33,482 nucleotides of DNA from Methylophaga sp. (GTDB lineage Bacteria > Pseudomonadota > Gammaproteobacteria > Nitrosococcales > Methylophagaceae), in assembly GCA_013139345.1 (NCBI GenBank), contig WTAY01000134.1, positions 1-33,482 of the forward strand. Reading direction: 5' to 3'. Position 1 is the stretch's first letter. Each line of letters opens with the position of its first letter. The translations under genes and the position numbers were made by a program. Shown in pieces: positions 16,344 to 18,751 of this stretch. The notes beneath the pieces are model-generated. The model was not told the DNA's origin. It worked only from the letters and a program-made list of their open reading frames with translations, and ran no database searches.

Positions 16344-17147
16344 TTGGCATCTCACGACTTCCCACCTTTATCTCTAACAGAAATAAATACATTCCTTAAG
16401 CAAAGTACCATTAATAAACTTGATGAAATTCTGATTCATTCCTCAGTTCCATCAACAAATGATGAACTTTGGCAGCGACTCTCTCAGGGAAAAACAACTG
16501 CCGCAGTGTGCCTTAGTGAAACTCAAACAGCAGGCCGTGGTCGTCGTGGTGACGAATGGCAATCCCCCGCTTCTGGCAATCTTTACCTATCCATATCGTG
16601 GCCATTTCCCGCAGAAACAGTACAAAATGGCTTAAGCATTGCGATTGGTATAAGTTTGATAAATATACTCAAATCGGAAGGAATCAATAACTTACAACTA
16701 AAATGGCCAAATGACATTTTATATAAAAGACAAAAGCTAGCAGGAATTCTAGTAGAATCACGCTTCGGTAAAACATTGAATACCGTCATTGGCATTGGCC
16801 TTAACTTTAAGCTTCCAAGTGCCACCAAAAATAAAATACAACAACCAACCACCAGTCTTCAACAGCTTTGTACAGATGTACCCTGTCGAAATAGACTGGC
16901 AGGAAAAATTATTCAAACAATGATTAACACATTAGAACAGTTTCAAACTTCTGGATTACGTGACTTTATTCCACAGTGGTCATCCTATGATGCACTTGCC
17001 GATCAAGCAGTTACCTTAATTGATAAAGATAACCATACACATGTTATTGCTCGAGGCATCAATGAGCACGGCGAACTACAGTATCAACTAGACAATAAAA
17101 TCCACACTCTATCCAATAGCCACGTAAGCATTAGGTTCTCATCATGA
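16344..17147 (+). CDS. birA: Biotin--[acetyl-CoA-carboxylase] ligase, apparently without N-terminal HTH; TTG start
   Basis: SSVPSTNDELWQR, ETQTAGRGRRGDEWQSPASGNLYLSISW, LKWPNDILYKRQKLAGILVES. Confidence 0.93.
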   Translation: MASHDFPPLSLTEINTFLKQSTINKLDEILIHSSVPSTNDELWQRLSQGKTTAAVCLSETQTAGRGRRGDEWQSPASGNLYLSISWPFPAETVQNGLSIAIGISLINILKSEGINNLQLKWPNDILYKRQKLAGILVESRFGKTLNTVIGIGLNFKLPSATKNKIQQPTTSLQQLCTDVPCRNRLAGKIIQTMINTLEQFQTSGLRDFIPQWSSYDALADQAVTLIDKDNHTHVIARGINEHGELQYQLDNKIHTLSNSHVSIRFSS

Positions 17148-18343
17148 AATTATTAGTCGATATTGGTAACACTCGAATCAAATGGGCTCGCATCGAGTCA
17201 GGTCCAATAGATAGCCAAAGCTTTAACCGCAGTAAAACAGGTGTTAAAGCCTCATTGAACAGCCATTGGAAATCATTAGAAGACATCACTTCAGTCCATG
17301 TCTCTAATGTTGCAGGCGACAAAATCGCTCAGCAACTAACTGAATGGGTGGAAAAACAATGGAAGATTACTCCTGTTTTTGTACGCAGTGAGAAGAAACG
17401 CTTTGGCGTCACTAATTCTTATGACCAAGCAGAATTATTAGGTGTTGATCGCTGGTTGGCTCTAATTGCTGCTCGCCAACATGCACGACAAGCAACATGT
17501 GTTATTGACTGTGGTACGGCAATTACCGTTGATATTGTGACTAAATATGGTGCACATCAGGGCGGCATGATCCTGCCCGGCCTCACATTAATGCGCGAAA
17601 CCCTGACAAACAATACCAGCGACTTAAATGAAACGGATGAATCAAGTGACTTTAGAACACTTGCCGTAAATACTCAAAGCGCAATTAAAGCTGGAACCCT
17701 CTACAGTGTTACCGCTACATTAGACCGTATCGTTGATGATCTTAAAGAACAATATAACAACCGTATTCGTTTCATCATTACAGGCGGCGATGCCGAGCTA
17801 TTAAAGCCACTATTACCCTCATTCATTGCTCACTACCCTGATATCGTCTTAAAGGGCTTAGCGTATTATGCTCGCCAAGGTGATCGAAAGCCTAAACCGC
17901 AAGAAACTGTAGATACTACTGAAGTTGTAGAAGTAGCAGAAGTTTCTGAAACGGCAGAAGTTATTGAAACAGCAGAAGCTGTAGAAACAGCAGAAGTTGT
18001 TGAAACAGCAGAAGTTGTTGAAACAGCAGAGGTTGTTGAAACTACAGAAGTTATTGAAACAGCAGAAGTTGTTGAAACAGCAGAGGTTGTTGAAACAGCA
18101 GAGGTTGTTGAAACTACAGAGGTTGTTGAAACTACAGAAGTTGTAGAAACAGCAGAGGTTGTTGAAACTACAGAAGTTATTGAAACAGCAGAAGTTGTAG
18201 AAACAGCAGAGGTTGTTGAAACTACAGAAGTTATTGAAACTACAGAAGTTGTAGAAACAGCAGAGGTTGTTGAAACTACAGAAGTTATTGAAATAGCAGA
18301 AGTTGTTGACGCTGTTGACGCTGTTGACGCTGTTGACGCATAA
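17144..18343 (+). CDS. coaX: Type III pantothenate kinase CoaX with a long repetitive acidic C-terminal extension
   Basis: Complete kinase core (LLVDIGNTRIKWA, GVDRWLALIAAR, VIDCGTAITVDIV, GGMILPGLTLMRETL, FIITGGDAELL, DIVLKGLAYYA) followed by a repeat tail from about residue 256. Confidence 0.95.
   Translation: MKLLVDIGNTRIKWARIESGPIDSQSFNRSKTGVKASLNSHWKSLEDITSVHVSNVAGDKIAQQLTEWVEKQWKITPVFVRSEKKRFGVTNSYDQAELLGVDRWLALIAARQHARQATCVIDCGTAITVDIVTKYGAHQGGMILPGLTLMRETLTNNTSDLNETDESSDFRTLAVNTQSAIKAGTLYSVTATLDRIVDDLKEQYNNRIRFIITGGDAELLKPLLPSFIAHYPDIVLKGLAYYARQGDRKPKPQETVDTTEVVEVAEVSETAEVIETAEAVETAEVVETAEVVETAEVVETTEVIETAEVVETAEVVETAEVVETTEVVETTEVVETAEVVETTEVIETAEVVETAEVVETTEVIETTEVVETAEVVETTEVIEIAEVVDAVDAVDAVDA
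17909..18340 (+). repeat. In-frame tandem array: about 22 x 18-bp units (consensus gttgaaacagcagaagtt, VETAEV) followed by 4 x 9-bp units (gttgacgct/gca, VDA)
   Basis: Counted directly: 18-bp register from 17909 to 18304, then 9-bp units 18305-18340, then TAA. Confidence 0.97.
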
Positions 18344-18389
18344 AGTTTGTCAGACTACATTATCTAATGTAATCTTTCGCATCTAATTT

Positions 18390-18479
18390 GGAGAGCTGGC
18401 CGAGCGGCCGATGGCGCACGCCTGGAAAGTGTGTATAGGTTTATCCCTATCGAGGGTTCGAATCCCTCGCTCTCCGCCA
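18390..18479 (+). tRNA. tRNA-Ser (anticodon GGA)
   Basis: ggagagc...gctctcc acceptor stem, anticodon loop ctGGAaa, long variable arm (tataggtttatccctat), T-arm gagggTTCGAATccctc, encoded GCCA end. Confidence 0.95.
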
Positions 18480-18485
18480 TATATA

Positions 18486-18516
18486 AAAACACCCTCAATT
18501 GAGGGTGTTTTTTTTA
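18486..18516 (+). terminator. Intrinsic terminator after tRNA-Ser
   Basis: aacaccctc-aatt-gagggtgtt followed by T8. Confidence 0.92.
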
Positions 18517-18639: not shown

Positions 18640-18751
18640 GGTGACCCGCACTGGTCTCCTCGCGACGATATGTTGGTTAGCCCGTCAGGCCCGGAAGGGA
18701 GCAGCGGAGCCTTCGGACTCGAGCGCCGAGATTTGGCTGGTGTGGGGCATC
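18640..18751 (+). ncRNA. ffs: Bacterial small SRP RNA (4.5S RNA)
   Basis: Conserved apical domain GTCAGGCCCGGAAGGGAGCAGC, plus pairing gtgacccgcac...gtgtggggcat at the ends; upstream of dnaX as often seen. Confidence 0.93.

Follow-up and report, generated by a model that had tools for sequence, protein, structure and literature searches.

A tandem-repeat-encoded C-terminal tail, predicted to be disordered, on the type III pantothenate kinase (CoaX) of an uncultured Methylophagaceae genus

In the Borg elements of Methanoperedens, coding tandem repeats (aaTRs) create disordered regions in many proteins of an extrachromosomal element; these repeats are enriched among extracellular and membrane proteins and are usually perfect (PMC9879509). 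Prokaryotic ribosomal proteins often end in low-complexity sequence (PMC6821194), and the C-terminal variable linker of FtsZ and the non-catalytic region of RNase E are disordered C-terminal regions of essential proteins that drift in length and sequence (PMC4435900). Surface proteins can vary in length through repeat number, with folded cell-surface domains setting the projection distance (Periscope proteins, PMC8201768). For CoaX itself, the available portion of one report presents the M. tuberculosis protein as a pantothenate-sensing regulator of Dop, showing that CoaX can gain a protein-interaction role, and describes neither a tail nor a repeat (PMC12288473). Known type III pantothenate kinases (PDB 2f9t, 5b8h and 4o5f) stop near the core.

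The locus considered here lies in a 33,482-nucleotide stretch of DNA (the window) from a 1.95-Mb draft genome (G000; 261 contigs, 78% complete) of an uncultured Methylophagaceae genus, g1, whose members are methanol-consuming bacteria of a marine type. Its coaX gene, for a kinase of pantothenate (vitamin B5), encodes 399 residues (17144-18343, + strand, closing with TAA), and the 3' part of the frame is a tandem array; relative to the known enzymes the tail is extra. The coaX arrays of this family resemble Borg aaTRs in being in frame, with unit lengths divisible by three and disorder-promoting residues including E and T, and in evolving fast, with independent origins, to give new, predicted disordered regions that are missing from ordinary homologues (PMC9879509). 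Unlike Borg aaTRs, they are chromosomal, occur throughout a bacterial genus and affect chiefly a single housekeeping enzyme of the cytoplasm; the array in the window is, moreover, degenerate. The tails of FtsZ and RNase E are likewise C-terminal, disordered and drifting in length and sequence (PMC4435900). As in Periscope proteins, the number of tandem repeats alters protein length, but in CoaX the units are short and predicted to be disordered, and the protein is an intracellular enzyme. Nothing supports a link between the tail and an interaction role of the M. tuberculosis kind, and the window's core keeps its catalytic motifs. A literature search returned no report of CoaX tails in Methylophaga or Methylophagaceae.

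The core itself is typical of the family. It matches PF03309 (Pan_kinase) in Pfam (E 3.9e-48, 164.5 bits versus a cut-off of 24.7) and TIGR00671 among the NCBIfam baf/PanK models (131.3 bits versus 58.2), and residues 3-241 match PDB 2f9t (E 1.4e-26). The active-site motifs DIGNT, GVDRW, DCGTAIT and GGMILPG are all present; D6, D102, R103, W104, D122 and T125 are invariant in an alignment of 38 sequences, and conservation stops at residue 246 (...YYARQG). Because no CoaA-type kinase passed the cut-off in any of the 29 genomes of the genus, CoaX probably serves as its working pantothenate kinase. The coaX ATG shares the last bases of birA (ATGA overlap), and the gene is followed by tRNA-Ser(GGA) at 18390, a terminator-like hairpin, the small SRP RNA at 18649 and dnaX. 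The SRP RNA is all that the window has between tRNA-Ser and dnaX; at one related locus (L158, G004:C40), a 775-codon antisense sensor-kinase-like frame lies in that interval.

Table 1. Features of coaX and its 3' flank in the window
Feature	Position	Strand	Basis or remark
CoaX catalytic core, residues 1-246 (type III pantothenate kinase)	17144..17881	+	Pfam, NCBIfam, PDB, motifs
Non-repetitive start of tail, DRKPKPQETVDTT, basic at first	17882..17920	+	Short K/R/H/P-rich core-tail junction, retained in most relatives
18-bp tandem array, ~22 units E-V-V-E-T-A/T	17921..18309	+	TRF, codon table
54-bp higher-order repeat (three 18-bp units), three copies	18137..18298	+	Unit-by-unit listing
9-bp tandem array, 4 identical copies (V-D-A)	18304..18339	+	TRF
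TAA stop of coaX	18341..18343	+	
Candidate tRNA-Ser promoter, TTGTCA-N17-TAATCT	18347..18375	+	Starts 3 nt past coaX stop; cross-family conservation
tRNA-Ser (GGA)	18390..18479	+	ARAGORN; Rfam tRNA match 18390-18476
Terminator-like hairpin, 3' of tRNA-Ser	18485..18512	+	

An earlier note on this DNA, made from the letters alone, had described an acidic repeat tail on a complete CoaX core, and this is confirmed. Tandem Repeats Finder (TRF) reported 21.6 copies of the 18-bp unit (84% matches, no indels, score 512), the highest-scoring array of the whole window, followed by the 9-bp array (4 copies, 100% matches). Its rank here and that of the coaX array in the control described below place it far outside chance expectation. 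The note's figure of about 145 residues holds for the acidic V/E/T/A repeat; since the core ends at residue 246, the whole tail comprises 153 residues, starting at residue 247 with DRKPKPQE. The composition of the repeat part (E43 V42 T29 A19 I6 D5 S1) bears out the statement that K, R, P, G and aromatic residues are missing from it. Variants between units are mainly GAA/GAG, GTT/GTA/ATT, ACA/ACT and GCA/ACA. Units 13-21 make up the 54-bp higher-order repeat, a sign of nested duplication. Exact repeats inside the array reach 60 nt at most, and 100-150-base reads could therefore in principle order the units. An antisense open frame of 162 codons across the array was dismissed as a trivial result of its periodicity.

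AlphaFold2, run with 38 sequences, gave mostly >90 pLDDT for the core and almost exclusively <50 for residues 254-399, where no secondary structure was predicted; the AlphaFold check proposed in the earlier note thus came out in favour of disorder. On a charge-hydropathy plot the window's tail falls near the order/disorder boundary owing to its valines, and support for a disordered tail therefore comes mainly from AlphaFold2 and composition. The top phmmer match, PDB 9e5c, is another V/E/T/A-rich repeat protein and was set aside as a chance resemblance of low-complexity sequences.

Named relatives of the CoaX core belong to Methylophaga and Methylophagaceae. In the core tree, g1 forms one starred group, the neighbouring genus g2 joins it (g1+g2, 96*) and Methylophaga lies outside. 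CoaX was found 25 times among 29 g1 genomes, each time with a tail, which excludes the possibility, raised in the earlier note, that relatives lack the tail because of an assembly error here. TRF detected arrays in 24 of these 25 genes, with periods of 6, 9 (15 cases), 18, 36, 54 and 90. The exception is a sister (G009, 96% identical) that differs already a few residues into the tail and whose contig stops after 18 tail residues. Arrays were also present in two of three g2 genomes, and TRF found none at coaX in Methylophaga (0/24) or the outgroup family (0/4). All 26 periods are divisible by 3, and the reading frame stays open through every array except that of G019. In g1 and two of the three g2 genomes, the tail is largely made of in-frame tandem DNA repeats.

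Turnover between close relatives is rapid, with unit, length and charge differing by species. Complete g1 tails range from 39 to 158 aa and from -47 to +4 in net charge; some are near-neutral or positive, three related species have mixed-charge tails, and basic tails are frequent in Methylophaga. Common types are (VEA)n, (VET)n, (VES)n, (VDA)n, (TE)n, (KAVEET)n and (VEAVQP)n. Species also differ in copy number and in which third base they use, and the unit DNA is species-specific (GTGGAAGCT, GTTGAAGCC, GTAGAAGCT, GTGGAAACT, GTGGAATCT and others), which suggests that arrays are homogenised locally. What persists across species is only low complexity and predicted disorder. Accordingly, the disordered part of the earlier note's "disordered polyanionic spacer" agrees with the AlphaFold2 models, but the polyanionic part is not conserved.

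Methylophaga tails are non-repetitive, K/E/P/A/T-rich and mostly 32-109 aa long. Two members of this genus are near-tailless (G074, 6 residues; G060, 11) and G031 (g4) has no tail, indicating that the tail is dispensable in evolution. Outside the family, 68 other CoaX proteins from gammaproteobacteria stop no more than 14 residues past the core. Among the 18 long frames checked in a class-wide sample (125 genomes that gave a match, including two g1 genomes), there was one true long tail and one 55-residue run (G053), the end of which resembles tRNA sequence read through. The true one, in a complete genome of another gammaproteobacterial family (G168, L299), is an independent acidic, E/A/P-rich tail of ~106 residues. 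In the samples searched, the CoaX extension is almost confined to Methylophagaceae.

To gauge constraint, dN/dS was pooled over seven pairs. The value for the tail is 0.44 (95% 0.34-0.58), which leans low as amino-acid-level alignment of low-complexity tails biases dN down; the core gave 0.06 (0.05-0.07). Omitting the last eight codons yielded 0.45 for the tail. The tail is about sevenfold relaxed versus the core, yet coding and constrained. As its dN/dS is relaxed but clearly below 1, the tail is very probably translated and under weak constraint. Two frames are broken. In G019 (L170), an extra base puts ~24 copies of GTTAAAGCT, which would encode (VKA)n, one base out of frame and past the stop; in the single-contig Methylophaga genome G063 (L180), the tail is frameshifted relative to G062, which has an identical core, and runs into tRNA-Ser. 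Both could be sequencing errors.

The extension occupies the stretch that separates the enzyme core from the promoter block of tRNA-Ser(GGA). The layout TTG[CT]CA-N17-TAANCT precedes tRNA-Ser at 22 of 24 Methylophaga loci and at 9 of the 18 g1 loci with a stop codon. A simple consensus promoter scan did not list the window's TTGTCA-N17-TAATCT block; its conservation upstream of tRNA-Ser makes it a likely promoter of that gene. At Methylophaga loci such as L178, L183 and L205, the 3' end of coaX overlaps the probable promoter: TTGCCA is translated as Leu-Pro and the coaX stop sits between the two boxes. A C-terminal binding motif, LP[E/D]xx[I/N], was considered and rejected, its TTG CCA codons being the conserved TTGCCA box upstream of tRNA-Ser. 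This box is kept outside the coaX frame in the near-tailless G074 and G060. The tails of FtsZ and RNase E bear conserved binding motifs, whereas CoaX tails have a motif only as explained by the overlapping promoter.

For a view of how specific the arrays are to this locus, one 400-kb stretch of the sister genome G028 served as control. The coaX array had the top score of the 37 arrays in it, followed by arrays in the N-terminal region of IF-2, in a small ORF that resembles a lipoprotein and in a CheA-like linker (all named by eye). MreC likewise carries acidic arrays at its C-terminus in one subclade (L237-L240; G017, G010, G012 and G003), with (TET)n, (TEQ)n, VE-rich and (VEA)n units; elsewhere among the relatives, as in the window's own genome, MreC has a short end free of repeats. 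The repeat process therefore reaches other genes too, though it acts chiefly at coaX. Genome-wide VE-repeat expansion was rejected: in 59 genomes, the matches listed for VE[A/T/S/P]x3 fall almost only at coaX, with exceptions in MreC and a transposase-like gene of G003 and at one unrelated place in G055, although this exact DNA pattern misses the window's own units (VETAEV/VETTEV) and hence undercounts. A REP-associated-type transposase-like protein (by eye; L160, G003:C66) contains an in-frame VESVESVES stretch, and at L168 (G032:C14) two mutually similar plastocyanin/cupredoxin-like domains (by eye) of one protein are linked by (EVA)n.

Our preferred explanation, which we hold to be probable though far from assured, is that the tail is a weakly constrained, disordered extension of a normal CoaX, colonised by a minisatellite that turns over through slippage and is tolerated. 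Among the readings offered in the earlier note, a non-selected C-terminal expansion fits best, given the relaxed dN/dS, the two broken frames and the lack of conserved sequence, length or charge. We infer that the ancestor shared by g1 and g2 had a V/E-rich CoaX tail, which gained a single array, with a unit of 9 bp or another multiple of 3. Replication slippage would have been the engine, expanding, contracting and re-homogenising the array, together with unequal recombination, separately in each lineage. Units that leave the frame open and the product soluble would survive because a floppy tail at the C-terminus leaves the kinase undisturbed, and frame-breaking and sticky units would mostly be purged. 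The tail's own contribution would be at most generic (solubility, excluded volume), with a specific function presumably absent and neither a specific partner nor a catalytic role required. Some observations run counter to a passive tail. Loss was never seen among the 25 CoaX genes of the genus, though a passive tail should vanish more often; V/E/T/A composition recurs at CoaX and, in one subclade, MreC, and is not obviously favoured by blind mutation; and tail dN/dS is clearly below 1. The universal tail, together with the rank of the coaX array as strongest of the 37 in the control, points to a likely locus-specific selection or locus-specific mutational hot spot.

A selected, functional disordered tail would account for some of these observations. 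It might act as an entropic bristle, a solubility tag or a length-tunable element for CoaX oligomerisation, condensation or turnover, its sequence, like that of the FtsZ linker, free to drift provided that hydrophilicity and disorder are kept. The tail is universal in g1 and present in most of the family, its dN/dS is significantly <1, aromatic residues are nearly absent from all CoaX tails, and the unrelated G168 carries one of its own. Against this, tails span 0-158 aa and strongly negative to positive charge inside one family, near-tailless members occur, two broken frames are tolerated and the sole conserved motif is accounted for by promoter DNA. On balance we think such a function rather unlikely. 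The narrower proposal that slippage within populations tunes CoaX solubility, clustering or turnover through a selected tail length is a long shot. A role at the DNA or RNA level, tied to the downstream tRNA-Ser promoter through spacing, an upstream element or translation up to the promoter, is slightly less likely again. The Methylophaga coaX frame does cross the conserved TTGCCA box, which encodes the LP of the C-terminal LP[E/D], and many g1 species have the coaX stop right before TTGTCA. Methylophaga, however, shows the same promoter layout without an array, while G008 and G024 keep the array with no tRNA within 700 nt and the tRNA of G018 is 422 nt away. Moreover, the V codon varies freely among species (GTT/GTG/GTA) with the peptide unchanged, which points to constraint at the protein level.

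It is very improbable that the array is an assembly artefact or has a wrong copy number in this draft. The incompleteness and fragmentation of the assembly invite the suspicion, as do the seven of 25 g1 contigs and one g2 contig that end inside the tail, and the N run that one has there. Yet 25 genomes that come from separate studies have the array at the same site; for four genomes its other half turned up on a contig end that continues into the conserved tRNA-Ser; and the window's longest exact internal repeat is short. Contig ends inside the array are expected where assemblers stumble, and, in a sample of one genome per species, are compatible with copy-number variation within populations. 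The existence of the array is secure and its exact copy number less certain. A folded repeat domain fused to CoaX, for example a beta-solenoid of hexapeptides, is scarcely credible. It would suit the hexapeptide period with its regular V, and there is a weak match to the Pfam LED repeat (PF20854), at 24.9 bits far short of the cut-off of 59. We rejected it on the AlphaFold2 result, with its low pLDDT and lack of secondary structure, and on unit diversity: sister species have 2-, 3- or 6-residue or irregular units, and conserved capping residues are absent.

The preferred reading of a tolerated, slippage-driven extension draws on a phenomenon already known, the making of disordered regions by coding repeats; what is unusual is that a metabolic enzyme carries such an array persistently and across a whole genus. 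One practical caution follows for Methylophagaceae drafts, in which the array affects CoaX length, annotation and contig continuity. If tail length were indeed tuned by selection, the array would be a heritable dial on CoA synthesis, at the enzyme that commits pantothenate to CoA. The family offers a natural series in which one essential enzyme, in >50 related genomes, carries at the same site anything from no tail through non-repetitive tails to pure arrays. This series lets one ask directly whether a repeat-built disordered tail is selected or merely tolerated.
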